Made by a program: the position numbers and the translations under genes
In this document: positions 5,622-62,510 of the stretch, piece after piece
Layout: every line of letters begins with the position of its first letter
How positions within the stretch are numbered: position 1 is the stretch's first letter
Notes under the pieces: model-generated
The model's input: the letters and a program-made list of their open reading frames with translations, nothing else
Told to the model about the DNA's origin: nothing
Databases searched by the model: none
Assembly: GCA_002887195.1 (NCBI GenBank)
Contig: PJAB01000015.1
Location: forward strand, 1-64,000
Reading direction: 5' to 3'
Length of the DNA stretch: 64,000 nucleotides
DNA from: Chrysochromulina parva
Lineage: Eukaryota > Haptophyta > Prymnesiales > Chrysochromulinaceae

Positions 5622-5789
5622 GGCTGGTCCCCAAAAGAGAGTGCCGGTACGTTTCGTCAATCTAAGTCCATCGCAATGTTCTCTTCTCGAGCTGGAAACG
5701 GTTCACAGACCGTACTTCTGGAGTACATCTGGCGCTGGCCTTGGTGACGAGCCGCTGCTTGCTTGCGCGCGCTCGGGTCTCGAGAGAAC
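5622..5789. promoter_or_regulatory. Bidirectional promoter, nicotinamidase / eIF4A3
   Basis: Only 168 bp separate the two divergent start codons. A single TTCACA lies at 5702-5707, about 83 bp from each ATG, so it sits almost exactly midway. Confidence 0.6.
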
Positions 5790-6998
5790 ATGGCCGCCAC
5801 GTCTTCCTCCAGACCGGCGCTCGAAGCTGAGGCGCCGCTCTCATTTGACACGTCCGAGGACGTCGAGATTGTCCCCACATTCGACGCGATGGGCTTCAAA
5901 GAAGAGCTCCTCCGCGGTATCTACGCTTACGGCTTCGAGAAGCCCTCGGCCATTCAGCAGCGCGCAATCATGCCAATTCTAAAAGGACGCGATACGATCG
6001 CGCAGGCACAGTCAGGGACGGGCAAGACGACCATCTTCTGCGCCGGTATTTTGCAATGCCTCGACACCTCGTTGCGTGAGACGCAAGCGCTCGCGCTCGC
6101 ACCCACACGCGAGCTGGCGGAGCAGACGCAAAAGGTAATCCTGGCGCTCGGCGACTACATGAGCGTGCAGTGCCACGCCTGCATCGGCGGAAAGAACATA
6201 GGCGAGGACATGCGTCGGCTCGACGCGGGCGTGCACGCCATCTCGGGCACTCCTGGCCGCGTCTTCGACATGATCAAACGGGGCAACCTTCGCACGCGCG
6301 CAATCAAGATGCTCGTGCTCGACGAGGCTGACGAGATGCTCTCCCAGGGATTCAAGGAGCAGATCTACGATATCTACCGGTATCTTCCGCCCGCATGCCA
6401 GGTCGTCCTCATTTCGGCCACGCTTCCAACCGAGATCCTCGAGATGACGCGCAAGTTCATGACCGACCCTGTGCGCATCCTCGTCAAGCGCGACGAGCTG
6501 ACACTAGAGGGCATCAAGCAGTTCTTTGTCGCGGTTGAGCGCGAGGAGTGGAAGTTCGACACGCTGTGCGATCTGTACGATACGCTCACCATCACGCAGG
6601 CCGTCATTTTCTGCAATACGAAGAAGAAGGTCGACTGGCTCACGAATAAGATGCGTCAAGCCAACTTCACCGTCTCGGCCATGCACGGCGACATGCCACA
6701 GAAGGAGCGTGACGCAATCATGGCCGAATTTCGCGCGGGGGACTCACGCGTTCTCATCGCCACCGACATCTGGGGGCGCGGAATCGACGTGCAGCAGGTC
6801 TCGCTCGTCATCTGCTATGACCTGCCCAACAACCGTGAGCTCTACATCCACCGCATCGGCCGCTCGGGACGCTTTGGCCGCAAGGGTGTGGCGATCAACT
6901 TCGTCAAGTCGGACGACATCCGCATCCTGCGCGACATCGAGCAGTACTACTCCACGCAGATCGACGAGATGCCCATGAACGTCGCCGATCTGGTCTAG
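5790..6998 (+). CDS. EIF4A3: eIF4A-III (DDX48), DEAD-box RNA helicase of the exon junction complex
   Basis: This is a 402-residue, single-exon helicase. All DEAD-box motifs are present: Q motif (near 51-56), motif I AQSGTGKT (73-80), PTREL (105-109), TPGR (154-157), DEAD (178-181), SAT (209-211), and the C-terminal [10 protein letters not shown] and [10 protein letters not shown] motifs. The C-terminus ending [15 protein letters not shown] is the signature of the eIF4A3 subfamily rather than translation factor eIF4A1. In other eukaryotes eIF4A3 clamps spliced mRNA upstream of junctions, which fits a genome with many short introns. The ATG at 5790 follows GAGAAC. The next gene lies 298 bp downstream on the same strand. 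Confidence 0.97.
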
Positions 6999-7173
6999 TA
7001 TCCATAGAGACGAGTACGGAGCCTCCATATTAGAGACGGTAGAGATGAGAGCGCCCGAGGAATTGCGCTCCTCTGTCCCGCTCCCCAGCTTTCAGACACG
7101 TGACAGTGCGGTCTCACGGTCCGAGGCTCTGTGCCCGCCATGATGCAAGGTGAAGGTCGGGTTGTACATAAAA

Positions 7174-7188
7174 GTCAAGTGACTTGAC
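7174..7188. repeat. Perfect short inverted repeat upstream of the calmodulin-like gene
   Basis: GTCAAGT-G-ACTTGAC is a 7-bp inverted repeat around one G, about 110 bp before the calmodulin-like start codon and just after the eIF4A3 3' flank. It could be a dimeric transcription-factor site or part of the eIF4A3 3' end. Confidence 0.5.
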
Positions 7189-7218
7189 CTGATTTGACTA
7201 CATAAAATTTTCGTTTCA

Positions 7219-7224
7219 TTCACA
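7219..7224 (+). promoter_or_regulatory. TTCACA element of the calmodulin-like gene
   Basis: TTCACA lies 73-78 bp before the ATG at 7297 and matches the motif at most other promoters of the window. Confidence 0.5.
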
Positions 7225-7296
7225 GCCCAAATCGCAAAAGGGAGTAATGCGTGACGTCCAGGAGTGTGCTGCTGACGCAGAGACCTTCAACGCGCG

Positions 7297-8109
7297 ATGG
7301 GCAACAAAATTTCTTCGGCCGTGGGCATGAAGAGAAGGGAGGATGTTTCGGTGATCGACAAGCTCACGGAGGCGCAGCTGGACGAGTTCCGCGAGGCTTT
7401 CAACTCATTCGACAAGGTGTGTGCGGGGTGCGGGCTGCTGCTGTCGACGTCGCATTGGGAAGAGAGGACTCACTGTCCGCGCGGCCTGCGTCTAGCATGC
7501 ATCCGTGCTCTGGTCGTCATTTGGCCGCCTCGCTCACACGCCGCGCACGCTCGCTCAGGATGGAGGAGGATCCATCGATGCCAGAGAGCTGAAGGACCTG
7601 ATGGCGTCGGTTGGGCAGAACCCGACCGATGAGGAGCTCGAGGAGATGATCCGGATCGCGGATGCTGATGGCACAGGGGATATCGACTTTGCCGAGTTTG
7701 TCACGCTGATGGCGCACAAAATGGCCGACGAGAAGTCGGAGGAGACGCTCAGGGCGGCCTTCTCTGTCTTCGACACTTCCGGGGACGGCTTCATCAACGC
7801 CGAGGAGATGCGCCGCATCATGATTAACGTGGGTGAGCCGGTGACGCTCGAGGACGTTGAGCAGGTGATCAGGAAAGTGGATAAGAATGGTGACGGCGCG
7901 ATCGACTACGACGAATTCACAAAGGTGACGCCGCACCCCAAGCACAAGCCTCCTCCCGCCGCAGAGAGTCCTTGGAGCTCCTTCATGCGCCGGCGTTGCT
8001 CCTGTCCGCCGGGGCGACGTTGCCGACGCCGCCGACTCGTGCGGCTGTGCTCGCCTCACAGGTCATCATGGACGAGGCACCATCAAGTCTTGCAGCCAAA
8101 AACCCATAA
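7297..8109 (+). CDS. Calmodulin-like four-EF-hand protein with N-myristoylation motif
   Basis: The coding exons are 7297-7416, 7559-7924 and 8062-8109, joined in phase 0 by introns of 142 and 137 bp with GT-AG ends (GTGTGT, GTGACG; both acceptors CAG). The product has 177 residues. Four EF-hands are intact: loops DKDGGGSIDARE (split by intron 1 after residue 40), DADGTGDIDFAE, DTSGDGFINAEE and DKNGDGAIDYDE. The N-terminus MGNKISS has Gly2 and Ser6, the classic N-myristoylation context, so membrane attachment is likely. Calmodulin itself has 149 residues; the extra residues are the acylated leader and a short C-terminal tail. It could be called a calmodulin, calcineurin-B-like or centrin relative; the loop spacing is closest to calmodulin. 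Confidence 0.9.
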
Positions 8110-8425
8110 TTTGGATGGAGGCGCCGGCGCCTCGCGCACTCTCAGAACTCTCGTAGCGCTCAGCCTGCTCGAACAACTCGAAGGTTGTCAAAACCATTTC
8201 CAACAATTTATATACATTGTATCTAACCGCCGCATGAGGCATGCACCGCGCACCGGACACGGGACAGGAGGGAGTTACGGCCAGAGTTTGGAGGCCAGAG
8301 GCCGGTACCTAGTTTTGGGGCCTTTCTCTTCACAGTGACTCGACGACGGGCGCACGCTCGCTTCCTCGAAAGCGCGCGCGGCATCCGACAGAGCAGTATC
8401 CAGAACACGCCCTCCTCCTCGAATC
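8110..8425. other. Intergenic, calmodulin-like 3' flank and CDC48 promoter
   Basis: No gene is seen. There is an AT-rich patch near 8200-8222 (AATTTATATACATTG). TTCACA lies at 8329-8334, 92-97 bp before the CDC48 start codon. Confidence 0.5.
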
Positions 8426-11815
<3,390 letters not shown>

Positions 11816-12826: not shown

Positions 12827-12973
12827 GGCGTCGGCCAGAGACGCGTGCCCTTTTGTGGAGGGGCACCCAAACTTGTGCACCAAACATGCAAACCGTTAAC
12901 GCGATTCGCGCATTTCACATGGGTTTTTCGCACGAAGACTCGGGTTTCGTCACATTCGTCCCCTGGGCACGCG
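12827..12973. promoter_or_regulatory. Bidirectional promoter, Tom40-like / SLC19-like
   Basis: The 147-bp divergent spacer has TTCACA at 12914-12919, 55-60 bp from the SLC19-like ATG and 88-93 bp from the porin ATG. Confidence 0.6.
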
Positions 12974-14752: not shown

Positions 14753-15189
14753 ACATCGTGTGTATTTTCAAATTTTGTCGCTCTGTCCCGCTCTACGCGT
14801 CAAATCTGTAATCTCGTCGCCAAATCTCGTCCAGTGGGTCGCCTAATCTCGTCGTATCTCGCCAATCGCCAATCGCCTCCAAGCATCGAGAAACCAAGCA
14901 TCGCCACAATCGCCGATGCAAGGAAGAAGGAACCAAGCATAAACCAAGCACAGCTCACGTCATAGCACATAGGGACATAGCCACGTCCCACGTCAAGGAC
15001 GTCCAACTCCAAGCAGCCACGCCCGTGGATGAACTCTCGATTATGCAAATCCCTGAAGCAAAGCTGCTTGCACTTCACGGATTAGCGACGCGCGCGGCGC
15101 GCGCCGAGCTCCGACGTCACGTACAGTACCCTCGTGCTCGAGGGGACCGAGCGCGTTGTGTTGAACAGCAGCCGCTTCGTAAATATTTA
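14753..15189. other. Intergenic, IFT144 promoter with short CCAAGCA repeats
   Basis: Between tandem (+) genes. About 14875-14960 holds four copies of a CCAAGCA word and, just before them, several TCTCGTCG/TCGCC words. No TTCACA is present; the nearest match is TTCACG near 15075. A possible AT-rich core (AAATATTTAATG) abuts the IFT144 ATG. Confidence 0.5.
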
Positions 15190-20263: not shown

Positions 20264-21931
20264 TCAGTGCGGTGCCGCGCCCTTGTGCCTTTGGACGCCC
20301 ACATCATTCCAGCGAGGCACGATTGTGTAAGAGCCACCGATCCTCTGCGCGGACGCGAGCAGCGGGATTGCTCGCCCCAGAAAGGCGTGTTCCCCTCCGA
20401 GAGACGCCGCAAGGCGCGTGCCTTGCCTCGCAAGCTCCGTCGAATCTTCGGCACGGGGTATTAGCATCGAGACTATTTCAGCCAGCGTGGCGCTGCGAGA
20501 CGTCTTCCAGGCTGGGTGGCGTCCACGTACTCGCGCGGGCCGGCCTCCGATGTTGATGGTGCTCTTGTTGTTTTGGGCGAGGCAGCCAAGGCCCGTTGCC
20601 AGAGAAGCAGCACAGATGTCCAGTTGAATCGCTGGCACCGACTTCGCTCCTGTACCTTTAAGGGCGTGCGGCTGCTCGGCTAGCCAGCGCTGAAGGTAGT
20701 CAACCTCAGCGACTGCCCGCCTCGCCCAAAGTAAGCTGCGTAAGAGCACCTCCGAGCCATCCGCAAAGTAATTGATCGATTCCACTCGCGCGCACACGCG
20801 CTGGGACTGGACCCAATGCCACCTTCGGAGCACACCGTCCGGCTTCTCGCCACCCATGGCGCCATAGTGGAACCAGAACGTCTCCGGGCTAGATGGCGGC
20901 GCGCGCTTTGGCCACGAGCGTTTAGCGCCAGGCTCGTCCTCTGCGCACTCGGTGAGCCTCAGGTCGCCTCCGAGCTTGTTTCGCACACGGAGCATGTGGA
21001 AGAAGAACCCCTGGTCCGTGTCTGCGTTCACAAAGTCCCAATTGTCCTTGTCGAGCAGATGCGTATGTCCACGCCGGCGCCTCCAGATGTGGTCATCATG
21101 GGAGACCACTTCGTGCGGCGGGCCGACCTGCATGTAATAGGGAGGCGATCAGTGGCAATCAATGGCACTCAATGATGGGCGAGTCAATGACGACCCACGC
21201 ACATGATCCCACCCTAGTGTGAGATTGAAGGGCCCGAAAGCTCCGGTTCGCCGAATGAGCGCGATGCCGTCCTTGAAGAGGGTCATGTTGGGCCTTGCGA
21301 TCAAGACTGCGCCATGGACGGGCGACGAGTGATCCGGGTATGAGAGCAGTGCGAACTGACGACTCCGGTCGAAACAGCTGACTAGTGCTGCCCAGTCGCG
21401 GCCAGTCGCTGTGACGAGGTCGTCGCTGTCACGAGTTGCTCCCGGCATCTCCGCGAGTAGCGCCGACAGGCGTGGCATGATCTCAACGTCGAGGTCGAGG
21501 TAGACGGCTACGCGTGCTTCGCGTTCCATGGCAAAAATCACCCAACGCAGCATCATATAAACCGCCTTTCCACGCCATTCATGGCAGCAGCGGGCCTTCT
21601 CTGCGTACTCGTGCAGAGATGAGATGGCTCGTTGCAGCCCCCCGTGGTAGTGGCGATGCACCACGACACGAACCGCAGCGTCATCGGCGCTCAGGGCCGC
21701 TCCGATGCTGGGGTGTAAGCACGGCGTGAACATATGCACACTCGCAGACTCACCTGAGAGCCTGCGCACCTGCGAGGCGATCGCATGGGCCTGCCGCGCC
21801 CACTGGATCAGTGCACATCCGTAGGAGGCGCACTTCGGCGGCGAACGCCAGGCGTCCTCCGACGCTAGTAGCGAACCTTTGTCAACCAAGAAATGCGAGG
21901 TCACGAATGCGACTAAGTCCGGCTTCGCCAT
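20264..21931 (-). CDS. Putative GT-A glycosyltransferase (GT8-like)
   Basis: The exons are 21931-21203 and 21127-20264 (minus strand), with a 75-bp intron (donor GTGCGT, acceptor ATGCAG) joining in phase 0 to read GWDHVGPPHEVVSHDDHIW. The product is about 530 residues. A DxD-type motif in VYLDLDVEIMPRL marks the nucleotide-sugar and metal site, and VTATGRDW plus HGAVLIARPNMTLF are typical of GT8-like or related GT-A enzymes that copy a retaining fold. The family is inferred from the DxD context; acceptor and sugar are unknown. No signal anchor is obvious at the ATG used (21931). Three TTCACA sites lie directly upstream. Confidence 0.7.
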
Positions 21932-21943
21932 TCTGACTCTATT

Positions 21944-21996
21944 TGTGAATTCACACCAACATAGATTCACACCTAAAAAAACGGTTCCGTTCACAC
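21944..21996 (-). promoter_or_regulatory. Triple TTCACA cluster with palindrome TGTGAATTCACA
   Basis: A perfect 12-bp palindrome TGTGAATTCACA occupies 21944-21955, 13-24 bp before the glycosyltransferase ATG. TTCACAC recurs at 21966-21972 and 21990-21996. This is the densest cluster of the motif in the window. Confidence 0.65.
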
Positions 21997-22020
21997 AAAA
22001 AGGCTACACTTCTAACACGG

Positions 22021-22920
22021 TCATTCAGGGACATCCTGGATGACAAAGTCGTCGTCTCGTTCCTCGCCAGCTGCATCTCCGCCGGCTGTCAAAGCGCCCG
22101 GTTTCGCCTTGCCTTTCGCCTTGCCTGCCTTGCGTCGTTTGCTCTTCGCCTTCGATCCGGGCTGCTGGCCTAGCAGCTTCGCGAGCTCTTCCAGCAGGCT
22201 GTTCGATCCCCATGTGCTCGTGCCACTGCGACTACTGCTGTCTTGCACCCGCTCGGCCTTATCCTCTTTTTCCCACTCTGCCTCCCAGTCCTCTTCCTTG
22301 ATCGGCTTGGGCTTCTTCCGCGACGCCACGGCAGGTGGCTTCTTGGCCAGTGGTTGGCTGGTCGAGCCATCTGGTACTAAGACCGGTGTGGTGGCAACGG
22401 CCGCGGCGATTTTGCCAGCAGAGGGTTGTTGCATCTTCGAGCTTTTGCCGTCGCTGCCATGATATGCACCGCTGGAGCTGGCCACGGCAGGGTCCTCGTC
22501 TGCAGCCGCCACAAATCTCACGGCGCTGGGTTTTGGATTTTGTTGCATGTCCTCGAGAAGACTCGTTAGCCAAGGGCTGGCTCCCGATGCGTGTGAACTT
22601 CGGGGCATGCGAGTGGGCACCACCGCTGGGATCTCAGCGTTCACCGGCTGCGCATTCACCATCGCTGCAGTTGCCGCGGAGCGTTGCACAAGTCCCCTGC
22701 GTAGCCGCCTATCCATGACGTCCAGCTGATCGTCCAAATGCTGCAAGCGCTCGTCAAGGCTGCCGATGAGGCGCTCTATGTGTGCTAGCCGCTCCACAGA
22801 CGCACTTAAGGACGACGGCGAACCAGCGGGCTGAACGCTTGGACGAATGAAGCGTATGACGCCCACAACGACAGCGTGAGTCAGAAGCAAGCATACGCCA
22901 AGGGAAAAGGCGTCGCGCAT
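22021..22920 (-). CDS. Hypothetical single-pass membrane protein with coiled coil and acidic tail
   Basis: This is a 299-residue single-exon protein with its ATG at 22920. One hydrophobic segment near the N-terminus (residues about 5-25, SLGVCLLLTHAVVVGVIRFI) is followed by a short Leu/Asp/Arg coiled coil (about 40-75), a Ser/Ala/Pro linker, a Trp-containing acidic patch (EEDWEAEWEKED), a Lys/Gly/Ala basic stretch and an acidic C-terminus. No family is recognised. It is divergent from the FtsJ methyltransferase gene and tandem with the glycosyltransferase gene only 89 bp away. Confidence 0.6.
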   Translation of the reverse strand: MRDAFSLGVCLLLTHAVVVGVIRFIRPSVQPAGSPSSLSASVERLAHIERLIGSLDERLQHLDDQLDVMDRRLRRGLVQRSAATAAMVNAQPVNAEIPAVVPTRMPRSSHASGASPWLTSLLEDMQQNPKPSAVRFVAAADEDPAVASSSGAYHGSDGKSSKMQQPSAGKIAAAVATTPVLVPDGSTSQPLAKKPPAVASRKKPKPIKEEDWEAEWEKEDKAERVQDSSSRSGTSTWGSNSLLEELAKLLGQQPGSKAKSKRRKAGKAKGKAKPGALTAGGDAAGEERDDDFVIQDVPE

Positions 22921-23078
22921 TACGGCCTCGTTCACGCGCCTGACACCGATAATTCGGCGGAGCGTTTTCCCAAAACGGGTAGCGAGAAGTTAGAATTAAC
23001 ATACAGTTTTCGGATTTCTTCACAGCCATCGGTTCTGTTCACGAACACGCGCGAAGACGTCGACGACATAAACGTCAT
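22921..23078. promoter_or_regulatory. Bidirectional promoter, membrane protein / FtsJ
   Basis: The 158-bp spacer has TTCACA at 23019-23024, 55-60 bp before the FtsJ start codon, plus two TTCACG variants (22931 and 23039). Confidence 0.55.
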
Positions 23079-23792
23079 ATGCGAGTTCCCTGCCTCGGCT
23101 CTGCTCGAAGTTTCGCGACGAAGAGCGGCTCGTCCAGTCGCTGGTGTGCGCGCCACCTTGCGGATGAGTATGTGCGCAAGGCGCTGAGGGACGGGTATCG
23201 CTCTCGTGCGGCATACAAGCTGCTTCAGATGGACGCCCGTTTTCGGCCGCCACTGCTTCGGAAGGACGGCGTTGCCGTGGAGCTGGGAGCGGCACCAGGC
23301 TCATGGTCGCAGGTTCTGGTCGCCAAAGGCATGCGCGTCATTGCGGTCGATATGCTGCCACTCGAGCCACTCGTGGGCGTGGACTTTGTCAAGGGTGACT
23401 TCACAGAGAAGACGGTGCAACAAGATGTGGTTGGACGGCTCAACGGCGAATTGTGCGACCTGTTGCTGAGTGACGTGAGTCCCAACCGGAGCGGGAATAA
23501 ATCACTCGACGAAGCGCGGCTCGTTGCCTTGCTTGAGCAAAGTTTCTCCTTTGCTCGGAAGGTGCTTCGCCCAGGGGGCTCGTTTGTGGGCAAGGTGCTG
23601 CAAGGGTCGGAGCTGCAGCCGTTGCTGCAGCTGTCGAGGCGCTTCTTCAGCTCGGGCGTGCTTGCCAAACCGCCCGCTTCCCGTCTTGCGAGCGCCGAAA
23701 TGTATTTGGTGGCGAGATGTTTTGACCCTGTGGCTTTCGATACGGTGTGGAAGTCTGGAAGACGAGACGATGAAAACCGCGGTATCCGGTAA
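23079..23792 (+). CDS. FtsJ/RrmJ-type rRNA 2'-O-methyltransferase, MRM2-like
   Basis: This is a 237-residue single-exon protein. The Rossmann SAM-binding loop is VELGAAPGSW. The K-D-K-E catalytic set is visible: Lys in SRAAYKLLQ, Asp in LLSDVSPN, Lys in FVGKVLQG and Glu in ASAEMYL. The family methylates the ribose of a conserved uridine in large-subunit rRNA (E. coli RlmE, mitochondrial MRM2). About 25 N-terminal residues rich in Arg, Ser and Ala with few acidic residues suggest a mitochondrial or plastid targeting leader, favouring the organellar MRM2 type over the cytosolic Trm7/Spb1 types. The ATG at 23079 is the first of the frame. Confidence 0.9.
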   Translation: MRVPCLGSARSFATKSGSSSRWCARHLADEYVRKALRDGYRSRAAYKLLQMDARFRPPLLRKDGVAVELGAAPGSWSQVLVAKGMRVIAVDMLPLEPLVGVDFVKGDFTEKTVQQDVVGRLNGELCDLLLSDVSPNRSGNKSLDEARLVALLEQSFSFARKVLRPGGSFVGKVLQGSELQPLLQLSRRFFSSGVLAKPPASRLASAEMYLVARCFDPVAFDTVWKSGRRDDENRGIR

Positions 23793-24277
23793 TGACCGGA
23801 CTAATGTGCGGCCTGTGTGACCAAAGTTTTTATATTTAAGGCTCTCACCCAACCCCAAAACATCGAAACATAGGAATATTCACAACCAATTTGGTTATTA
23901 TTCGACACCCATAGTCGGCCGCGGAGAGCAGCGGTCGGCTCCGGGGATGCGGCTGTGAGTTCAATGTCGACGTACGTCGCTCGTCGGACGGACGAGCGCC
24001 CCCCGGGGCCGGGCGCCGGCGCGCGGCGGATCGGGTAATTCTCGAAGTGACCTCACCCGGTCGCGAGTCGGATTCGGTCGTCGCGCGCAGACCTGGTCGC
24101 GCGCGGTCATGCGGTGCGGGTGCGTTGGTGGGTTGGGATGGTTGTGAGGTTCGTCTGTGTGATCCATGTGTGCCCGTGTCCCCGGGTGTGTCTCGTTAGT
24201 GTCTCGTGTGTTAGAAACCACGCGCATTCACACAAGTACACACATTCAAATTCACACTCTCACTTCACAAACACACC
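23793..24277. other. Intergenic region with GC-rich block and GT-to-CA strand switch
   Basis: Between tandem (+) genes. 23930-24110 is a CpG-rich block with the palindrome CGACGTACGTCG at 23968-23979. The + strand is then G/T-rich (about 24110-24210) and turns abruptly A/C-rich (about 24215-24277), where TTCACA copies lie at 24251-24256 and 24264-24269, 9-27 bp before the likely ATG at 24278. Confidence 0.6.
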
Positions 24278-27611: not shown

Positions 27612-27669
27612 ATACGAAGGTGACACACTACCGCGGCGTATATAGATAAAGTCCCGTGACTGAGAAGAT

Positions 27670-27695
27670 TTCACAGACGGCTCTTCGTTTTCACA
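27670..27695 (+). promoter_or_regulatory. Two TTCACA elements upstream of the methyltransferase gene
   Basis: TTCACA occurs at 27670-27675 and 27690-27695, 93-118 bp before the ATG at 27788. Confidence 0.5.
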
Positions 27696-27787
27696 GCTGC
27701 GGGTCCTTTTCTCGGAGCCGCTGTGCCTGTGGCCGGTGTAATCGCGGCCGCGGCGGCCGACTAGGGGACGCCGGGTGCTCACGGGCC

Positions 27788-30822: not shown

Positions 30823-30881
30823 TCAGCGATCTCCGACGATTTCAACTCTGCTCGCGAAAAGGCCTAGAAATGCGGAATATG

Positions 30882-30906
30882 TTCACACGGGACCTAGTGT
30901 TCACAC
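30882..30906 (-). promoter_or_regulatory. Two TTCACAC elements upstream of adenylate kinase
   Basis: TTCACAC occurs at 30882-30888 and 30900-30906, 60-84 bp before the adenylate kinase ATG; the adjacent HVA22-like gene ends at 30919. Confidence 0.55.
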
Positions 30907-30918
30907 CGTCGCCGCCCC

Positions 30919-36201: not shown

Positions 36202-36666
36202 TTCGGCCTAATATGTTAAAGGGAATTTTCGATACAGTTGCGAGAGACCGAGAGTAGTAGTTTCGATTACAGTTGTTTCGTTCATGGGGAGCTCCGAGGT
36301 CCGAGACCCGCTCAGAAGGATTATTGCGCCATCTGACCGCTGGAAAAAGGCTCACGACGTCGATTCCTTTTTCGCGCTTCCATACAAAAGACATTCCACG
36401 AACACAGTCTCTGCTCTCTCCGCAACCATTCTCTCGGCCACCTCAGACACGTCAAAACAAATCTCAGACACGGACGCACCCCAGGGGGGCGCCCTCTGAG
36501 CGACGGCCCGCTCGCAATCGACGTGCAAATTCGCACGTGTGTCAAATTGGATTCCATCTCTTGTTTTGATTCACCGCGTTAGATTCACACCCAGATCGTG
36601 TGAAGATTGCGTGAGCAGAGACCGCGGGGCCGACCGTCTCCCGCTTCACCGCCGTGCTAGTCAAAA
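36202..36666. other. Intergenic, katanin p80 promoter region
   Basis: No gene is supported. TTCACAC is at 36584-36590 and TGTGAA at 36599-36604, 63-83 bp before the katanin start codon. The rest is mixed sequence. Confidence 0.55.
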
Positions 36667-38994
36667 ATGGCCGCAAAGTTGCAGGAGTTCGTGGCTCATG
36701 GCTCAGCTGTCAACTGCCTCCAGTTTGGACGTAAGAGCGGGGCGGTGATGGTGACCGGCGGCGAGGACAAAAAGGTGAATGTGTGGGCGATTGGGAGGCC
36801 GAATGCGATCTTGAGTCTGACTGGGCACACAAGTTCAGTTGAATGCGTGACGTTCGATTCAAACGAATCGACAGTCATTGCCGGTTCGGCCGGCGGGACG
36901 CTCAAGCTGTGGGATCTCGAGCAAGCCAAGGTTGCACGAACGCTGACAGGCCACCGCTCCAACTGCATCAGCGTGCAGGTATATACTCTGACAGCGAGCA
37001 GTGCCTGCTGCTTGCGGTCGTTCAGAGAGCTTTTCATGTCTCTCAAGACCGCCTCATGACTGCCGATCGTGTTCGGATGTGCATTCCCCGCAGTGGCATC
37101 CCTACGGCGAATTCTTTGCCTCGGGCTCAGTCGACACGAATCTCAAGATTTGGGATATTCGGCGCAAGTCGTGCATTCAGACGTACAAGGGCCACACCCG
37201 AGGTGTGCGGCAGATCGCCTTCTCTCCCGATGGGCGCTGGGTCGTCTCGGGCGGCGACGATGGTGTGGTCAAGCTGTGGGATCTCACGGCGGGCAGGTGA
37301 GCGCGATGCCCACGCGGATGAGTGCCCCCGTTCTGCGCTCAACAATCTCGCCGACTTCTCGTATCTGCGCAGGCTCGTGCATGAGTTCGCCCCGCACTCT
37401 GCGCCCATATCGGGCCTTGCGATGCACCCGACGGAATTCCTCATGGCGAGCGCCTCGGTCGATCGCACGCTCCGGCTGTGGGACCTCGAGAGCTTCGAGC
37501 AAGTGTGCTGCATGCCGCCAGATAGCGGCCAAATCCGCCGTGTGATGTTCTCCGAGGATGGCTCTGCACTCCTCAGTGGCGCGGAGGAGTCGCTGCGCGT
37601 CTGGGGCTGGGAGCCGGTGCGCTGCTACGAGCAAACCGACGTGCGCTGGAGTCGCCTGGCCGACCTCTGCACCTCGCCAGGGCAACAGAAGTTACTCGCT
37701 GGCTCTGTTCGCGAAGCCATCGTTTCCGTTTGGAACATCGACCTGACGGCCATACAGCCTTTCGCAAGCGCAACCCACCCGGCTGAACAAAGGCAGCCGC
37801 CAGTGCGCAGCCCGCGGCCCGCGGCTGCATCGCCAATGGGCGGCCGACGAGTCCAGAGCGATGCGACCCCCCCTCCAGCCCAGCGCACGGCGCAGACGCA
37901 ACGCCTCGACGCCCCTGAGCCGGCGGCCACTCCAGCCCAGAAACGTGATGCCAGTCGGGGAATGGGCAACCCCGACGAAGCTGTTCGTCAACAAATCGCC
38001 CAGTGCCGAGCACAGCTTGCGCAGCGGCGCGCGTCGCAAGGGCAAGGCGCGACTGCACCTTCTCACCTTTCTCATTGTCCGACCTCGTGCGCATCAGCAT
38101 CGATTGCCGAAGCACCTCCACCGGAGGCATTCTCTGCTTCCGGCAACCATGCCTCTGTGGGCACTTCGATGACGGATACCCTGGATGGGAGAGCTCCTGC
38201 GGTCAACCCAGATGGCCTGCTGACTGCTCCGCCTCCGAGCAAGCCTCAGCACCGAGCTCCAGCCGAGGCAAAGCGCGGTGCGGATATGTGTGGCGACGAC
38301 CACGATATTCTAAGGCTGCTGACCCACGGCAATGAGAGGCAAGAAGCGTGCCTCCACTCACGCCTCGACGCGCTCAGGACACTCCACACCTTCTGGCAGG
38401 CAGGCCAAGTGAAACAGGTGCAAACCAGGGCCCCATCCCGCGTCTAATCCCACACCCACACCCGCCAACAACTCATCAGTTGCTTTGTTGTTGCATGTGA
38501 GCGCCATGAGCAGATGCTGCAGCGACTGCAACAACTTGAGGACCCGAGCGTGACTTACGACGTCGTGGCAGCGGGCATCATCAAAGGCGCGAGCATCGAC
38601 CTCGAATGCGTGCTCGTTCTCCTTCCGTTGCTCATGTCTTTGCTGGACTCAACGTATGAAGACGTCGTATTGACGGCGATGCGCGCGGTCTCGCATCTGA
38701 GCCTTTCTTTCGGGCCGCTGATCAAGAACACGCGGGGCGTTGCGCAAGACATGCTGGGAGGTGAGTACCGCTTGAGCGGCATGTCCGAGCCCGGTTGCTC
38801 AACCCTAACCAACATCTCTCCTAATTGTGGCAGTGGATCTGAATGCCGAAGCGCGGCGACAGCGTTGCCAGGCGGCCTACGAGCACTTCTCTGGTCTGAT
38901 TCCACGGCTGAAGCGGATTGCACCCGCGCGCGGGTCGTTGGGCAGCACTGCCAAAGATCTTCTCGCTACGCTGAGTGCGCAGCTTGATCTTTAG
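36667..38994 (+). CDS. KATNB1: Katanin p80 regulatory subunit (KATNB1)
   Basis: Five exons: 36667-36978, 37094-37296, 37373-38417, 38514-38760 and 38834-38994, giving 655 residues. Introns are 115, 76, 96 and 73 bp with donors GTATAT, GTGAGC, GTGCAA and GTGAGT. Residues about 1-300 are a WD40 propeller (for example [44 protein letters not shown] and [14 protein letters not shown]). A Pro/Gln/Ala-rich linker follows. The C-terminus (about 485-655) is the con80 domain that binds the p60 AAA severing subunit ([20 protein letters not shown] onwards, then [16 protein letters not shown]). Katanin severs microtubules in mitosis and at basal bodies. Confidence 0.95.
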
Positions 38995-42593: not shown

Positions 42594-42812
42594 AGATGTC
42601 TCCCTACACTTCCGGTTGCGCTTCTCCTGTGAAGGATGGTGAGGAGTGCAGAAAGGAGAAGAGGGACGCAACGCACTTTGAAGTCTCTGGAACTTGTCAG
42701 CCGCGTGAAGGGTTTGTTGTTTTGTGCTCGCTTTCTGCGGACGACGATAGGGGAGTAGGCCTTCTTGCCGCTTAGGCAGCTAGCTGCTATCCGCCGCTTT
42801 CGAGAAGAGGAC
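42594..42812. promoter_or_regulatory. Bidirectional promoter, Nup88-like / Sfi1-like
   Basis: The 219-bp spacer has TGTGAA at 42628-42633, 35-40 bp before the Nup88-like ATG. No second copy lies close to the Sfi1-like ATG. Confidence 0.5.
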
Positions 42813-45952: not shown

Positions 45953-46100
45953 AATTCCTAAACGCAATCAAGTCAAGACAAGAAGGAACGACGCTTCACA
46001 AAACTTTGTCATGAACCTACGAAAGGCGCATGAGACAAACACTCCAGCGAGTCCCGAGTTTTAACCGCTGGTTCACACTCACGCTTTTGCACCGTCCGCG
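45953..46100. promoter_or_regulatory. Bidirectional promoter, uncharacterised gene / phosphomannomutase
   Basis: The 148-bp spacer has TTCACA at 45995-46000 (43-48 bp from the minus ATG) and TTCACAC at 46072-46078 (23-29 bp from the phosphomannomutase ATG). Each gene has its own copy. Confidence 0.6.
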
Positions 46101-47014
46101 ATGCACGGCGGAAAAAACCCGCGAGTCCTGGCGCTCTTCGACGTCGACGGCACGCTCACAGAGCCCCGGAAGTTAGTATCGCCTGAGACGCTTGCGTTCC
46201 TCGCCGAGCTGCGCAGCAAGATTGCAATCGGAGTTGTTGGCGGCTCTGACCTGACGAAACAGAAGGAACAGCTCGGAGACTCGCCTGCGCTCTTTGACTG
46301 GTGTTTCGCTGAGAATGGCCTGCTGGCCCACAAAGATGGTTCAGTCATAGGGCAGATGTCACTAGTGAAGCATCTCGGTGAGGACAGTCTCAAGCGGCTC
46401 ATCAACTGGGTTCTCGCCTACCTGTCGACACTGGACATCCCCGTGAAGCGTGGGACCTTTATCGAGTTTCGGCAGGGCATGCTCAACATCTCCCCGATCG
46501 GACGCAACTGCAACCGGGAAGAACGAAACGACTTTGAGAAGTTCGACCTGGCGAACAAGATTCGTGAGACGATGGTGGCCAAGATGCGCACCGAGTTCAA
46601 AGACCTGAATCTGACTTACTCTATTGGAGGGCAGATCTCCTTCGATGTCTTTCCGCAAGGCTGGGACAAGACGGTACGCGCGTGTGTACGCGTTGGCTCG
46701 CTCAGCCTCGCCGAGAGCACGCACCTTCGCCTTGGTAGTCCCTCCCTCGTCATAGAGCTGAGCTGTGCGTCGCGCTTCTTTGCTCGTGCGAACTGCAGTT
46801 TTGCCTCAACTATCTGCCAGAGGCCGACTTCGACGAGATCCACTTCTTCGGTGACAAGACATTCGAGGGCGGCAACGACTTCGAGATTTTTAGCCACCCG
46901 CGAACCAAAGGTCATTCGATCGATGATGCCAACCCAATGACGACGCTCAAGAAGCTGTCCGAACTCTTCGGCGTCGCGTGTCCGGCCTCATTGACGCCAC
47001 CTGGCGCCCACTGA
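46101..47014 (+). CDS. PMM: Phosphomannomutase (PMM)
   Basis: Exons 46101-46673 and 46799-47014 with a 125-bp intron (GTACGC donor, TGCAG acceptor) give 262 residues, close to eukaryotic PMM2 (about 246). The HAD-type nucleophile motif is LFDVDGTLT (Asp14, Asp16 as general acid-base). Other hallmarks are [46 protein letters not shown], and the joined [18 protein letters not shown]g site that spans the last exon. PMM converts mannose-6-phosphate to mannose-1-phosphate for GDP-mannose, feeding N-glycan and mannan synthesis, in line with the glycosyltransferases nearby. The IHFFGDKT motif sits entirely in exon 2. Confidence 0.97.
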
Positions 47015-50705: not shown

Positions 50706-51011
50706 CTTCGGAAAGTTGTTTTGAGAGTGTGAACTGGCTGTTAAGAGGGCCGATCCCCCCAGCCGGGCATTGGCCGCGACGCCCTGCGCGAACAATGACG
50801 ATAGTTGGAAACGCGAAAAAGCCAACTGTCAGGCTTCTGTAAGTCTACACTGTAGCAAAAGGGGAACAGGTGGTCCACACTTCCTTGTGCTGATTGTGCA
50901 TCATGTTGTGCATGCTCTAGCATGTTCGTGCGTGCACGATTTATGCACGAACGCGGCCACACGCGGTGCACGGATCTAGTTGCGCTGGTCATCTTCATTG
51001 CATCTCCAACT
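50706..51011. other. Intergenic, GT31 promoter and GT61 3' flank
   Basis: TGTGAA lies at 50728-50733, 23-28 bp before the GT31 start. No other feature was seen. Confidence 0.5.
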
Positions 51012-56133: not shown

Positions 56134-59100
56134 TCAGATGCCAAATGTGTCGTCTTCTCTGCTGAGATCGACCGTGTCGTCGCTGCCGTACGCGCCGCGC
56201 AAGCTATGTGCTTTCTGGAGCATGAGCTCCGGTACCGACGCTCGCACCTCGCGAGGCGCCGCGTCCTTTCCCTCGCGAGGCGCTGCCTTTTTCAGATTCT
56301 TTTGTGCGCTTTGCAGGTCCATGGTGCTCCAAGCCGGATGTGACGGCTCAGCAGCCACCGCTTGTGCCCGTGCTGCTGGAGGCGGCGCTGCCGGCGCAGA
56401 TCGCGGCGCGGCCAAGGGTGCAAGAGGCGGCGCAGGTGGCGCAGCAACCACTGGGGGCGGCGCATGCGGCGGCGCATGCGGCGGCGCATGCGGCGGCGCA
56501 TGCGGCGGTGCAGAGAGCATGGTTGGCGGGGCTGGAAGGCGCAACTCCCGCCGTGGCAAAGGCGATGGCAATACTTTGGAATTGGAAGACGGTGCACGCG
56601 GCGTGCTCGGCGCAGCACGTGGCGTCGACGGCAAGGCCGCTGCAGCTTGTGAGCCGGGCTGATGCTGCGACGGCGGTCCAGGCAGCGGCGCGGGCGGCGG
56701 CGACGTTGCAGGCGACGGCCCAGCAGATACCGGGGCGGTAGCGGGCAGTGGGGCAGCCTGCGCCCGTGCACCCGGAGCCGCTGATGTGACGGGAGGCGCC
56801 GCAATCGCAGCTTTCAAGAGAGCCTCCGTAGAGATCTCTGTGGAGCCACTCGCTGCTGCTTGCCGAATCAGCGCCTCGAGTTGAGAGATGCTCAGGCCGC
56901 CGGCGGGCGCAGCCGATGGTGCGACGGGACCGCGCAGCAGCGGGTGCTGTAGCAGCTCCGAAAGCTTTGGACGGCACTCGGGCTTGCGCTGCAGGCACGC
57001 TTTCATGACTTCGAGCAGGTATGGAAACTTGGAGGTGCGTAGCGGTGGAAATTGGATCTCAACGCGCTCGTCGGTGATCGCTTGCATCTTGCGCAGGTAG
57101 TTTTTAACATGCGCAAAGGGCGGCGCGCCGTAGACCATCTGGTAGAGGATGCAGCCCAGCGACCACACGTCTGACGCCCGCCCCTGCGTGAAGACGCTCT
57201 TGCCGTGCTCATCCTGCGCGTCCTGACCGACGATCGTCTCGGGCGACATGTAATTGAGCGTGCCAACCGTGTTCTCTCGCTCGATTTTGGTCACGTCGGG
57301 ATTGTCGTTCGTCATCGACTTGGCGATGCCAAAGTCGATGAGCTTGAGCGCACCCTTGACGCACAGAAAGTTCATCGGTTTTAGGTCGCCGTGGATGACG
57401 CGCGCCTTGTGCATCACGTCCACGGCCGAGAGCATCTGTTCCCAGTACCCACAAACGAAGGTCTCGTTGAGCTCGAGGCCCTTGGCCTGCCGCTCCTCCT
57501 GGTCTCGCTGGAGAATGCCCTTGAAGTCGATTTCGCCACACTCCATCACCATGTACACGACGCGCTCAGCGAGGTTGACCTCGGCGTCGACGAGCTCGAT
57601 GATGCACCTAGTTGCTTCCGGGACGCTCTTGAAGCGCATCATCAGGTCGATCTCGTTCTGCACTGCCTCGGCGAGCCCATTGGCCTCCTCCGAATCGGCC
57701 TCTAGCGCCACCTTCTTGAGCGCGAGGACCTCATTGAGGGGCGAGAGAACCTTGAACACCTGCGACGTCCCGCCCTTGCCGAGCAGCTCGAGCACTTTGT
57801 ACGGCACGCCATTGACGCTCACCTCGGCGTGCCCCGTTAGCAGCGATTCGCGCGAAGCAACAGTCGAGAGCGGCACCGCCCGTCCGGCGGCTAAAGTCAC
57901 CGCGGTGGACGCTTGGCCTGGCGTCGACGCAAATCGCAGACCGTGCTGGCAAGTCGCGGTCGCCGAGGCCGGCGCTTCGGCAGCGGCTGCGGCCCCGGTC
58001 CGAGCCGGCGTCGCGGGCGCCACGCAATTTACCGCGGGTGTGCTCGGTGGATCGAGAGGGGCGGGCGTGGCGCTTGAGCCATATGATGACGCCATGGACG
58101 CGGGCCGTGGCGTCGATAGCGGCGCGGACGATCCTGTGAAGGTGAAGGGGGCTGGCAACTGCAGCGCTTGCACGCGGACGGTGTCGTGGCACAGGGTGTT
58201 CGTCACGCTCCCATGGGAAGACGCGTCGCTTGGGCTGCGCTCGGAGCCCTCGTGCGAGCCCTCTTCGATGGGCAGCAGGTAAGGGTACTGGAGCTCAGGC
58301 CTCCGGACCGTGTCGTCCACCTCGAGCAGCTCGGTCGTGGTGCGCGCGTTCGCAGCAGAGCTCGCGATAAGGTGCGCTTTGGGCGCATGTACCTCGAGCT
58401 GCGACGTGGCCGGCACCGCTGGTGTGGCCAGCATCGGCGCACGTGCGAGCAGCTGTGTGCCATTCTCTGTGCTCGCAGCGGCGACGGCTGGCGGCATCTG
58501 AATGCGTTCCATGATGACAGTGTCTGCGTTCGCATCGCACACATGGGGAGCTACCTTGGGCGCGGCGGGGGCGGCCGTTGCAGCACCCGCGGGCAGACTG
58601 GCATAGGCCAAGCCTTGGGCATCGTGCTCCGCGGCGTTACGCACGCGGACAAGCACGAGATCGCCACTGTCGCCACTGTCGTCACTGTTGGGAGTCACGC
58701 TCGAAGGCTTTGCCGGACTCTTTGGTGGCAGTGATGTTGGGCGAGCGGACAGCTTCAAAAGTGCATCCTGAATGACCGTGCGAGAATGGCGCACGTCAGG
58801 GTATGTCCCGGTTGAGTTGCATTGAAAGTTCGGCTGGTCGAGTGCCTTCTCGAGGATCTTACGAGCCTCGTCGACGTTGCCCTGGGATGCCTCGAACACG
58901 GACCAAGCCACCGGGAAGGCAGCGTCCTGAACGCCGATGCGCTGGTGCTTCATATGCCTGAAGATCTGGCGGGCGTCTTCCGTCGACGTCTCCGCCCGCA
59001 AAAGCGCGTACTCGAGCCAGATGCGCGCCCCTCCGCGCTCGTCGATCGGCTGGCCCACGTCCTGCGTCGCCTTGCGGTACAGTGGCCCGAGCACAGAAAG

Positions 59101-59598
59101 CCGGCGCTCGGCAGAATCCTGCGCGCAAGCCCGCTTGTGCTCGTCGAGCCGACGGCTCCACGTCTGCGCGTCTAGAGCTCCAGTTGGCCCACGCGCATAT
59201 TCGGCGCTGATGGAGCTAGGCGCCCCATCTTTCATCAACGCATGCTTTGGCACACTCGGTGGTGCATCCACAGCGTCCGGAGGCTGTTGCGCCAATGAGG
59301 CAGTAGGCGGCGGCTGTGCGGCAGCAGGTGGTGCGGGCAAGAGTGTTGGCCGCGAAGGGATCTCGTCTTCGTCCTCTTGTACAAAGTCAACTCGTCGCGC
59401 ACGTGCTGGCGCACCAAGCTTCAGGCCTAGACCCATCTTCTTCCTGGGCTTGCTGCCACCCGGAAGGAAGACATCGGTGGCATCGGAGTCACGCCCTGCA
59501 TGGTCACCGCCAGTATGCGGATGCGCTGCTCCCGACTTGCCCGAGAGTCGTGTCGGGTTCTCGTTCTCTTTGTCGACGGGAAGTAGGCTGTCGGCCAT
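56134..59598 (-). CDS. MPS1: Mps1/TTK dual-specificity kinase (spindle checkpoint)
   Basis: The ATG at 59598 gives 1154 residues in one exon. Residues about 165-265 are a TPR-like module as in Mps1/Bub1/Mad3 (IWLEYALLRAETSTEDARQI, then KILEKALDQPNF). A long Ser/Pro/Ala-rich linker (about 270-590) follows. The kinase (about 600-890) has GKGGTSQVFKV, the lysine in LALKKV, VIHGDLKPMNF (Gly replacing the usual Arg, as TTK-type kinases lack HRD), DFGIAK and SDVWSLGCILYQM. The activation loop GTLNYMSPE is Mps1-like. The C-terminal tail (about 900-1154) is a Pro/Ala/Ser linker with a 12-bp tandem repeat (HAPP). Mps1 controls kinetochore attachment and, in many species, centrosome/basal-body duplication. 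Confidence 0.92.
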   Translation of the reverse strand: MADSLLPVDKENENPTRLSGKSGAAHPHTGGDHAGRDSDATDVFLPGGSKPRKKMGLGLKLGAPARARRVDFVQEDEDEIPSRPTLLPAPPAAAQPPPTASLAQQPPDAVDAPPSVPKHALMKDGAPSSISAEYARGPTGALDAQTWSRRLDEHKRACAQDSAERRLSVLGPLYRKATQDVGQPIDERGGARIWLEYALLRAETSTEDARQIFRHMKHQRIGVQDAAFPVAWSVFEASQGNVDEARKILEKALDQPNFQCNSTGTYPDVRHSRTVIQDALLKLSARPTSLPPKSPAKPSSVTPNSDDSGDSGDLVLVRVRNAAEHDAQGLAYASLPAGAATAAPAAPKVAPHVCDANADTVIMERIQMPPAVAAASTENGTQLLARAPMLATPAVPATSQLEVHAPKAHLIASSAANARTTTELLEVDDTVRRPELQYPYLLPIEEGSHEGSERSPSDASSHGSVTNTLCHDTVRVQALQLPAPFTFTGSSAPLSTPRPASMASSYGSSATPAPLDPPSTPAVNCVAPATPARTGAAAAAEAPASATATCQHGLRFASTPGQASTAVTLAAGRAVPLSTVASRESLLTGHAEVSVNGVPYKVLELLGKGGTSQVFKVLSPLNEVLALKKVALEADSEEANGLAEAVQNEIDLMMRFKSVPEATRCIIELVDAEVNLAERVVYMVMECGEIDFKGILQRDQEERQAKGLELNETFVCGYWEQMLSAVDVMHKARVIHGDLKPMNFLCVKGALKLIDFGIAKSMTNDNPDVTKIERENTVGTLNYMSPETIVGQDAQDEHGKSVFTQGRASDVWSLGCILYQMVYGAPPFAHVKNYLRKMQAITDERVEIQFPPLRTSKFPYLLEVMKACLQRKPECRPKLSELLQHPLLRGPVAPSAAPAGGLSISQLEALIRQAAASGSTEISTEALLKAAIAAPPVTSAAPGARAQAAPLPATAPVSAGPSPATSPPPAPLPGPPSQHQPGSQAAAALPSTPRAAPSTPRAPSSNSKVLPSPLPRRELRLPAPPTMLSAPPHAPPHAPPHAPPHAPPPVVAAPPAPPLAPLAAPRSAPAAPPPAARAQAVAAEPSHPAWSTMDLQSAQKNLKKAAPREGKDAAPREVRASVPELMLQKAHSLRGAYGSDDTVDLSREDDTFGI
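56458..56510 (-). repeat. 12-bp in-frame tandem repeat (HAPP)
   Basis: A CATGCGGCGGCG-type unit repeats about four times, encoding HAPP repeats in the Mps1 C-terminal linker. It keeps frame and is probably length-variable. Confidence 0.75.
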
Positions 59599-60037
59599 AA
59601 TTTGCAACGCGATTTGAAACGCGTCTCGGCTGTGAATATTCACAGTGACGTTTTTGGAACGTGCGTGTGCCGACGTTGTGTACATGTAGGTGAATGAACA
59701 GTGTTCAATTATTTGCGTGCTGTTTCAAACACCGCGAAACGCGCCGGTAAAGATTTATTAAATCAGCTATTCCTATTGGGGTTGCGTCGCCGTCGGTAAA
59801 GATACATTTATCGTATATTATCGAAATCAGCTATTGCCTATTCAAATGCAAAATCGAAATGCAAAACACCAGGGTCAAATTTTCTCAGCGGGGCTCTGCC
59901 CCGCGCCTCGCTAGGGTGGCAGTCTTCAAGATTGTACGTGACGGCCACCACCGGGGTCCGAGCCCCTGACCTCAGCTGCGAGCTGGAGCCGGCGCGCGCG
60001 CTATTGGGGCTGTCTCTCGCGAGTCGGCTAACCTAGG
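59599..60037. other. Intergenic, Mps1 promoter and AT-rich duplicated strip
   Basis: The palindrome TGTGAATATTCACA lies at 59631-59644. From 59745 to 59880 is AT-rich DNA with an imperfect duplication of CGGTAAAGAT...AATCAGCTATT. 59880-60037 is mixed. No gene is seen. Confidence 0.6.
59631..59644 (-). promoter_or_regulatory. Palindromic TGTGAATATTCACA element of Mps1
   Basis: This is a perfect 14-bp palindrome made of TGTGAA and TTCACA, 33-46 bp before the Mps1 ATG. Confidence 0.65.
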
Positions 60038-61258: not shown

Positions 61259-61628
61259 CTCTGTGAAGGGCAAAGCACCTGTGCGCGTTACATTTTTCTT
61301 GTTCACAGAGGGGCAAAACACATTGATGGGGAAGCAACAACTGGGATGGTGGACAAGACAAGCTGCAAAGATCTGGTTTTCTTGTCAACAGTGGGGCGAA
61401 AAAGAAACGTTCGCACAGTCTTTTAACAAGTTGTTCGCTGTGACACGGGCACACGCCGAATGTTTTTGTTGTTTAGGATAGTATTTGAGTGTGGTGTTGA
61501 AGGACTTGTAGAGAATTGCGTCGGGGGGGGCATGATCCGGGCGGACATGATTCCAGAGGCTTCTCTCTCGTCTCTCGGCACTCGGCCCCCGGCACGCAGC
61601 CACACGCACGGCACATCTCGTCTCAGAC
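61259..61628. other. Intergenic, unknown-gene promoter and EEP nuclease 3' flank
   Basis: TGTGAA is at 61262-61267 and TTCACA at 61302-61307. 61530-61536 is a G7 run. No gene is supported. Confidence 0.5.
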
Positions 61629-62480
61629 TCAGTGCCTCTTGCCGTGGAATCTGCGGTGCGACAATCGAGCCCAGACGAGATTATGGTCTGAGTCAGGCGT
61701 GTCGACCGTCCCGAATCCAATGCACCGCAGTGCTGCCACGATCACATCGTAGCGGCGCGGTGCGTCGATGCCGAAGCGACCGAGGGCCACGGCAATGCGC
61801 TGGCCAAGCTTCGGCTCATGCGCCCGGGCGAAGAAATGCGTGTCTCTCGGTGCAGCTGCGTGCACATCGCGCGCGCGGTGGCAGCGGGCCAGCGGCCCCA
61901 GCATGTTTTGCAGCAGCCCCTCAGCCTCCGTTCTCAGCAGCGAGAAGGCATTGGTGTCGCCGCACGCAACGAGTGGTCCGTCTGCATAGGTAGGCCAGAG
62001 TGCCGTGGCCAACGCGCGAATCTGACCAGCTCGGTGCCGATTGTCGCCGGCGGCATCTAGGTGAAAATTGGCCAACACAAGCCGGCGCGGACGCTTGCGG
62101 AAACCGCCACGAACTGCAAAGCACCCGATGAGAGCATGCTTTGGCTCGGGAACGGCGCTCGTGTATACGCGCTGCCACCACGGCACGGCAGCAAGTCGCG
62201 GCAGATCAACAATACCGATCCGTCGCAAGCGCAACCGCGCGCGATCGTACACAATTGCAAGCCGTGGCGCGCCGCTGTGCTCGCCAACGCCATAGCGACG
62301 TCCGAGTGTGGCTGCAACTCGGCGTGCCGCATGCGGCACGGCCTCCTGGATGCAGAGCGCATGAAGGCGCTCGGCGGCGCGCAGCTCGGTGTACACGCGG
62401 AGTAGCCGGCGCAGGTTTTGCCCATTGAGGATGTTGTGCGACGCGACGACCAGCGCTGCCATGTTGCAGCTGCATGCCAT
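61629..62480 (-). CDS. Endonuclease/exonuclease/phosphatase (EEP) family protein
   Basis: The ATG at 62480 gives 283 residues in one exon (ATG 62462 is an alternative). The EEP fold motifs are present in order: ASHNILNG near the start, HALCIQEAV with the metal Glu, LANFHLDAAGDNRHRAGQI, ACGDTNAFS (Asn and Asp), and the final SDHNLVWARL with catalytic Asp-His. The family hydrolyses phosphodiesters in DNA, RNA caps, phosphoinositides or sphingomyelin; this small version without extra domains cannot be assigned. TGTGAA lies 25-30 bp before the ATG at 62505-62510. Confidence 0.85.
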   Translation of the reverse strand: MACSCNMAALVVASHNILNGQNLRRLLRVYTELRAAERLHALCIQEAVPHAARRVAATLGRRYGVGEHSGAPRLAIVYDRARLRLRRIGIVDLPRLAAVPWWQRVYTSAVPEPKHALIGCFAVRGGFRKRPRRLVLANFHLDAAGDNRHRAGQIRALATALWPTYADGPLVACGDTNAFSLLRTEAEGLLQNMLGPLARCHRARDVHAAAPRDTHFFARAHEPKLGQRIAVALGRFGIDAPRRYDVIVAALRCIGFGTVDTPDSDHNLVWARLSHRRFHGKRH

Positions 62481-62504
62481 GTTAGGGGAGAGTTGACCAT
62501 TGGC

Positions 62505-62510
62505 TGTGAA
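62505..62510 (-). promoter_or_regulatory. TGTGAA element of EEP gene
   Basis: TGTGAA lies 25-30 bp before the ATG at 62480, the spacing also seen at phosphomannomutase (23-29) and GT31 (23-28). Confidence 0.6.

Follow-up and report, generated by a model that had tools for sequence, protein, structure and literature searches.

TTCACA sites in the window

The stretch studied here, called the window, comprises the 64,000 nucleotides at positions 1 to 64000 of contig C15 of the haptophyte Chrysochromulina parva (assembly total 45.07 Mb, 2199 contigs). It carries many copies of the hexamer TTCACA and its complement TGTGAA, whose concentration just before genes makes the word probably a real gene-control signal. 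A sequence-only reading of the window had described it as a shared core-promoter element lying before most genes. The sites quoted in that reading were present, 17 of the 17 start codons used were ATG, and the distances given were reproduced within one base. Beyond these, ATG-started open reading frames (ORFs) with a site at most 160 nt away began at 1925 (plus strand), 45952 (minus strand) and 61258 (minus strand). The sites are listed below, with the base that follows the hexamer in brackets. Start codons are those of the sequence-only reading or ORF-derived, not all of them independently confirmed, and names in quotation marks are that reading's own.

3362-3378, minus strand: long form TTCACAGCCAATGTTTA, without a confirmed gene start alongside
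5702-5707, plus strand: TTCACA(G), in the divergent promoter of a nicotinamidase-like gene (start 5621, minus strand; Pfam Isochorismatase) and a DEAD-box gene, "eIF4A3" (start 5790, plus strand; Pfam DEAD/Helicase_C)
7219-7224, plus strand: TTCACA(G)CC, sense, 73 nt before ATG 7297 of a calmodulin-like gene; EF-hands in ORF 7601-8338
8329-8334, plus strand: TTCACA(G), sense, 92 nt before ATG 8426 of CDC48
12914-12919, plus strand: TTCACA(T), in the divergent promoter of a porin gene (12826, minus strand) and a folate-carrier/SLC19 gene (12974, plus strand)
21944-21955, no strand: abutting palindrome TGTGAATTCACA, 13 nt before ATG 21931 (minus strand)
21966-21971, plus strand: TTCACA(C), in a cluster with the palindrome 21944-21955
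21990-21995, plus strand: TTCACA(C), in the same cluster
23019-23024, plus strand: TTCACA(G)CC, sense, 55 nt before ATG 23079 of an FtsJ methyltransferase gene
24227-24269, plus strand: three direct TTCACA (24227, 24251, 24264), sense, 46, 22 and 9 nt before the putative ATG 24278 of the "PPR" gene
27670-27695, plus strand: direct pair of TTCACA(G), spacing 20, sense, before ATG 27788 of a methyltransferase-like gene
30882-30905, plus strand: direct pair of TTCACA(C), spacing 18, antisense to adenylate kinase (start 30822, minus strand)
36584-36604, no strand: TTCACA ... TGTGAA pair before ATG 36667 of a "katanin-like" gene; WD40 in ORF 36843-38447
42628-42633, minus strand: TTCACA(G), sense, 35 nt before ATG 42593 (minus strand) of a Nup88-like gene (weak match under the Pfam cut-off)
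45995-46000, plus strand: TTCACA(A), between start 45952 (minus strand) and the phosphomannomutase start 46101 (plus strand)
46072-46077, plus strand: TTCACA(C), sense, 24 nt before ATG 46101 of phosphomannomutase
50728-50733, minus strand: TTCACA(C), sense, 23 nt before ATG 50705 (minus strand) of a galactosyltransferase family gene
59631-59644, no strand: palindrome TGTGAATATTCACA, 33 nt before ATG 59598 (minus strand) of a protein kinase gene, "Mps1"
61262-61267, minus strand: TTCACA(G), sense, 4 nt before ATG 61258 (minus strand); antisense site at 61302-61307
62499-62510, minus strand: long form TTCACAGCCAAT, sense, its TTCACA 25 nt before ATG 62480 (minus strand) of an Exo_endo_phos family gene (weak match)

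Abundance and location of the hexamer

In the window we counted 49 copies of TTCACA/TGTGAA against 23.2 +/- 4.7 expected, a number reached in 0 of 100 shuffles; the observation of the sequence-only reading held. Further statistics were drawn from a 306.8-kb sample made up of the window, the next 2.8 kb and 24 pieces of 10 kb each, taken from 19 contigs of the set C1-C20. This sample held 166 copies, against 95.9 (dinucleotide) or 115.8 (order-4 Markov) expected. In over-representation TTCACA/TGTGAA ranked second among complementary hexamer pairs on the order-4 Markov measure, but only about 181st of all words on the dinucleotide measure, in which GC-rich repeats lead. Outside the window contig there were 112 copies in 240 kb, and the sample density scales to some 21,000-24,000 words per assembly.

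Genes were predicted with a coding model applied to ORFs, intron-blind, which yielded 136 genes covering 60% of the sample. The 150 nt upstream of starts held 30 TTCACA, against 8.3 expected from the trinucleotides of the same class (composition-corrected ratio 3.6). TTCACA had the highest upstream excess of all hexamer classes counted 5 times or more there, with 37 copies against 7.7 expected from the rest of the sample. Coding DNA was at background (44 against 40.0, ratio 1.1). The remaining noncoding DNA had 59 copies against 31.5 expected, and stretches that were both 3' flank and near a start had 7 against 1.3.

Spaces between neighbouring predicted genes were then sorted by orientation, convergent gaps being bounded by two 3' ends. 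With a limit of 800 bp, 18 convergent gaps contained 3 TTCACA in 8.8 kb (4.1 expected), whereas 48 tandem gaps contained 35 in 16.7 kb (10.1 expected) and 15 divergent gaps 12 in 4.5 kb (2.9 expected). At limits of 400 and 1500 bp, convergent gaps had 0 sites (1.1 expected) and 5 sites (6.3 expected). The pooled contrast at 800 bp had a binomial P of 7e-5, with small numbers and imperfect gene models as its limits, and put TTCACA at the top of the 442 hexamer classes that these gaps contain 20 times or more. This scarcity in convergent gaps, together with the density in tandem and divergent ones, favours a promoter-side signal. In its location, then, first in rank upstream and at background in coding DNA, the word behaved as the shared promoter element that had been proposed.

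It did not lie before most genes. Upstream sequence of 60 nt or more was available for 126 predicted genes, and 34 of these (27%, about a quarter) had a site within 160 nt upstream, 13 of 27 on the window contig and 21 of 99 elsewhere, the window being richer in TTCACA-bearing genes than the rest of the sample. As control words, 89 anagrams of the hexamer reached 4.0 of the 126 genes on average, and none more than 11. The initiator-like position near 25 bp suggested in the sequence-only reading found no support either: distances to the ATG spanned the whole searched range, from 9 to 163 nt, and a fixed offset was rejected. Around 137 sites, no word upstream of TTCACA at a fixed distance appeared among the 14 best of each list, and all the best words lay downstream; 20 of these 137 sites had been picked for a long form described below, which by construction dominates the downstream matches.

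A strict word in two forms

TTCACA is strict in sequence. In noncoding DNA its observed/expected ratio was 2.25, against 0.73-1.45 for its 18 one-base neighbours. Apart from weak preferences, the flanks of 119 noncoding sites had no common sequence. By preceding base, ratios were 4.4 for ATTCACA, 2.6 for GTTCACA, 2.0 for TTTCACA and 1.1 for CTTCACA; by next base, 3.3 for TTCACAG, 2.4 for TTCACAC, 1.5 for TTCACAT and 1.4 for TTCACAA. The strongest form had A before the word (ATTCACAG 15 against 2.4; CTTCACAG 10 against 4.6).

The word occurs in two forms, TTCACAG, which is mostly directed toward genes and often continues as TTCACAGCCAAT(GTTTA), and TTCACAC, which has no clear orientation. Orientation was scored at noncoding sites with a coding-like ORF start within 160 nt on one side only. 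Sites of TTCACAG pointed toward rather than away from the ORF in a ratio of 14:1 (29 of 44 sites had no such ORF), those of TTCACAC in a ratio of 7:3 (29 of 41 without an ORF, 2 with one on both sides) and all TTCACA in a ratio of 23:8 (83 of 119 without, 5 on both sides), against 65:57 for 12 control words. A laxer and a stricter score limit gave 14:2 and 7:1 for TTCACAG, 9:5 and 2:3 for TTCACAC, and 24:11 and 10:5 for all forms, respectively. In tandem gaps, sense to antisense counts were 11:3 for TTCACAG, 5:9 for TTCACAC and 17:18 for the whole word. Directionality thus belongs to TTCACAG. TTCACAC also lay on the promoter side, with 0 convergent, 14 tandem and 4 divergent sites. Ahead of GCCATGG, which marks starts only weakly here (5 of 93 starts), a test of orientation across the genome showed no bias (98 against 92).

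Clusters, palindromes and the long form

Sites tended to occur together. Within 36 nt of each other, the sample had 18 direct and 9 inverted pairs, against about 0.7 of each estimated under independent placement. Genome-wide pair and word counts were compared with reversed-word controls. At gaps of 0-30 nt the assembly held 3674 direct pairs (control 179), 394 inverted pairs of the type TGTGAA..TTCACA (control 30) and 320 of the type TTCACA..TGTGAA (control 36). Among the 100 direct pairs listed, 77 were spaced 10-24 nt, 8 were a simple 6-nt repeat and several more were minisatellite copies. The two perfect palindromes of the sequence-only reading (21944-21955 and 59631-59644) were confirmed, and the first of these, the 12-mer TGTGAATTCACA, had 84 copies in the assembly against 0 for its control.

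The continuation of TTCACAG was likewise abundant: TTCACAGCC had 1461 assembly copies (control 165), the 12-mer long form TTCACAGCCAAT 333 (control 1) and TTCACAGCCAATGTTTA 143 (control 0). We inspected 24 long-form sites, 20 fetched on purpose and 4 from the sample. At 5 of them (L029, L032, L034, L035 and L047) an ATG 42-64 nt past the motif start opened a putative coding frame of at least 178 codons, to a stop or to the end of the stretch; 4 of these 5 also had an open ATG within CCAATG, and at L029 the gene model placed the start at a distance of 343 nt. At least 50 nt, running from the motif, were common to 8 of the 24 sites, L041 counted, and the left edge of the shared sequence was sharp. 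L041 and L046 agreed to 98.6% over 69 nt, beyond which no match was reported. Some of the long forms therefore belong to a dispersed repeat of about 70 bp that starts TTCACAGCCAATGTTTATAA and contains CAAGACACCGGACCGGCGTACAT; it was seen at positions 201-269 of both L041 and L046, and also in L040, L043, L049, L051, L053 and L037. With up to 2 mismatches allowed, an internal 23-mer of this repeat had at least 112 copies across the assembly (control 0), and among the matches listed on contigs C1-C357, 12 of 29 copies had an exact TTCACAGCCAAT 28-32 nt before it. In viral contigs the long form had a raw count of 18 stretches, and a search of viral contigs for eIF4A3 relatives gave 3 pattern matches and no relative.

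Neighbouring genes and other noncoding words

Two of the genes behind the sites had introns. CDC48 extended upstream of its 796-aa ORF (window 8426-8910): the relative P0121 matched at 8464-8829 and 8910-11138, and this split implies at least one intron in the N-terminal part. Its labelled matches included Phaeocystis (91%) and Diacronema lutheri (88%); the top matches overall were unlabelled environmental records, and one match was filed under the plant Nelumbo (83%). The phosphomannomutase gene had a 125-nt GT-AG intron (46674-46798). Because this intron has no stop when read in the exon 1 frame, the last residues of the 279-aa ORF do not belong to phosphomannomutase; P0001, from a public contig, had the same read-through. 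Across about two-thirds of its length the protein shared 86% identity with a record from Emiliania huxleyi and 82% with Prymnesium parvum. In the kinase ORF (56134-59685) the kinase domain was preceded by a region matching Mad3/BUB1 (E 1e-6, under the Pfam cut-off).

Other noncoding words stood out. The palindrome TACCGGTA (window 6375 and 47276; 15 sites in 306.8 kb) had a both-strand noncoding count of 30 against 1.1 expected, and CCGGTA/TACCGG peaked 150-200 nt before predicted starts; this is possibly a second promoter element. Also over-represented were GGCAATCAG, AGAGGTCATC and tandem AAGTCAAGTCA, probably further dispersed repeats; places noted in the window were 15665 and 35400 (GGCAATCAG) and 7172 (AAGTCAAGT). 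CAATCA and ATCAGA, high in the upstream hexamer list, overlap GGCAATCAG. TGTACA and TACATGTA, the latter likewise over-represented in noncoding DNA, overlap at 59679-59688, about 35 nt from the palindromic site 59631-59644.

What the hexamer may be

We lean, with modest conviction, toward TTCACA being a transcription-factor site near the transcription start. The strictness of the word, its promoter-side position, its clusters and palindromes and the lack of clear orientation of TTCACAC together point to a sequence-specific DNA-binding factor. Such a factor would recognise TTCACA near the start of transcription, and the site would raise or position transcription. Several observations weigh against this reading. 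The gene models are ab initio and intron-blind and missed at least one gene with sites in front of it (21149-21931). In the 120 nt before starts the neighbours TTAACA (6 against 1.9) and TTCATA (5 against 2.1) were also elevated. Tandem repeats inflate the direct-pair counts, and in its excess of direct over inverted pairs TTCACA was only 243rd of 1484 hexamers in the sample, a rank indicating that directed pairing is common here, mainly in low-complexity words. Lastly, 3' flanks lying more than 200 nt from any predicted start had 21 TTCACA against 7.5 expected. The sequence-only reading had regarded an equal frequency in 3' flanks as contrary to a promoter element, and on this point the outcome was mixed: a site lay in the 150 nt before the start in 33 of 126 genes and in the 150 nt after the stop in 22 of 130, and 3' flanks were enriched, but convergent gaps were not. 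Because convergent gaps are expected to be free of promoters, we infer that the 3'-flank excess reflects the promoters of neighbouring or unpredicted genes.

A tentative and rather doubtful alternative is that TTCACAG(C) is an initiator, with the A of TTCA as the first transcribed base and the CCAATGTTTA tail acting as a flanking core element, akin to the oomycete INR plus FPR. The sense bias of TTCACAG would agree with this, and distances of 9-163 nt would suit variable leaders. In 20 genes, ATGs were rarer between motif and start codon (6 in 1344 nt) than upstream of the motif (14 in 1183 nt), yet the depletion reached only P = 0.09 against distance-matched motif-free genes. TTCACACC matches the mammalian consensus YYANWYY (as quoted in PMC3599244), but TTCACAGC departs from it at the sixth base. 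TTCACAC and the whole word had no orientation in tandem gaps, and the GCCATGG test was null. Palindromes and clusters are unusual for an initiator. The one-sidedness of the bias, clear for TTCACAG only, might also be explained if TTCACAG were the 3' splice acceptor of introns in 5' leaders. Some sites are indeed preceded by pyrimidines (TTTCTCTTCACAG before CDC48) and, of the two introns examined, the one in the CDC48 coding sequence apparently ends TTGCACAG. Yet the phosphomannomutase intron ends CTGCAG, the strongest form has A before the word, and TTCACAC, which is on the promoter side too, cannot be an acceptor. We regard this explanation as very improbable.

A dispersed mobile or repeated element with TTCACAGCCAAT at its left edge could have seeded promoters, as the near-identity of L041 and L046, the many copies of the 23-mer and the long form 28-32 nt before some of them would suggest. 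However, TTCACAC lies outside the repeat, and the 143 and 333 long copies compare with about 21,000-24,000 TTCACA words; the repeat thus cannot account for the hexamer excess, and we hold this origin to be improbable. As for composition or chance, upstream DNA is more A+T-rich than coding DNA (GC 0.589 against 0.647). But the upstream excess persisted after correction, one-base neighbours were hardly enriched, no shuffle reached the observed count, and the anagrams fell far short of TTCACA in the number of genes reached, which leaves an artefact of this kind scarcely credible.

Comparison with known systems

From a promoter word this strict and abundant, gene finders would gain a start-side signal and haptophyte reporter designs an element open to a first test. 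How transcription starts outside the well-studied eukaryotes also becomes a directly testable question. In a literature search by titles and abstract starts, with subscription journals mostly outside it, no haptophyte promoter element was found among the papers listed, and none of these describes the present one; within the same scope, TTCACA with promoter and motif returned bacterial work only, and TTCACAG with promoter none.

The CCAAT box serves as the site of NF-Y. The long form has CCAAT directly after TTCACAG, at a fixed place, and CCAAT alone had no promoter bias (1.48, 0.67 and 1.62 per kb in convergent, divergent and tandem gaps, respectively). The mammalian initiator is degenerate, whereas here one strict hexamer is enriched. 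With the A of TTCA as +1, TTCACACC fits the consensus as quoted in PMC3599244 and TTCACAGC does not; judged by eye, TTCACAC followed by C or T fits it and TTCACAG does not.

The nearest described arrangement that we found is that of oomycetes. According to PMC3599244, the Phytophthora infestans elements INR (YCAYTYY) and FPR (MWTTTNC, earlier CAWTTTNYY) lie 2 nt apart, are forward-biased and occur in about 13% of genes; the same text gives INR+FPR as unique to oomycetes among the species searched, with no TATA box detected. The likeness to the long form lies in a short TCA-type word directly followed by a CAWTTT-like tail, close upstream of start codons, apparently forward-biased and in a minority of genes. 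The C. parva word differs in being TCACAGC-CAATGTTTA rather than YCAYTYY-MWTTTNC, and in having a TTCACAC form that is clustered and without clear orientation. By eye, TTCACAGCCAATGTTTA fails the INR+FPR consensus: INR position 5 should be T but is A, and the FPR-like part has one G too many. A bolder and rather unlikely view is that TTCACAG-CCAATGTTTA would be a directional supramotif of the core promoter, specific to haptophytes and independent of its oomycete counterpart INR+FPR, with copies that spread along with a short dispersed repeat.

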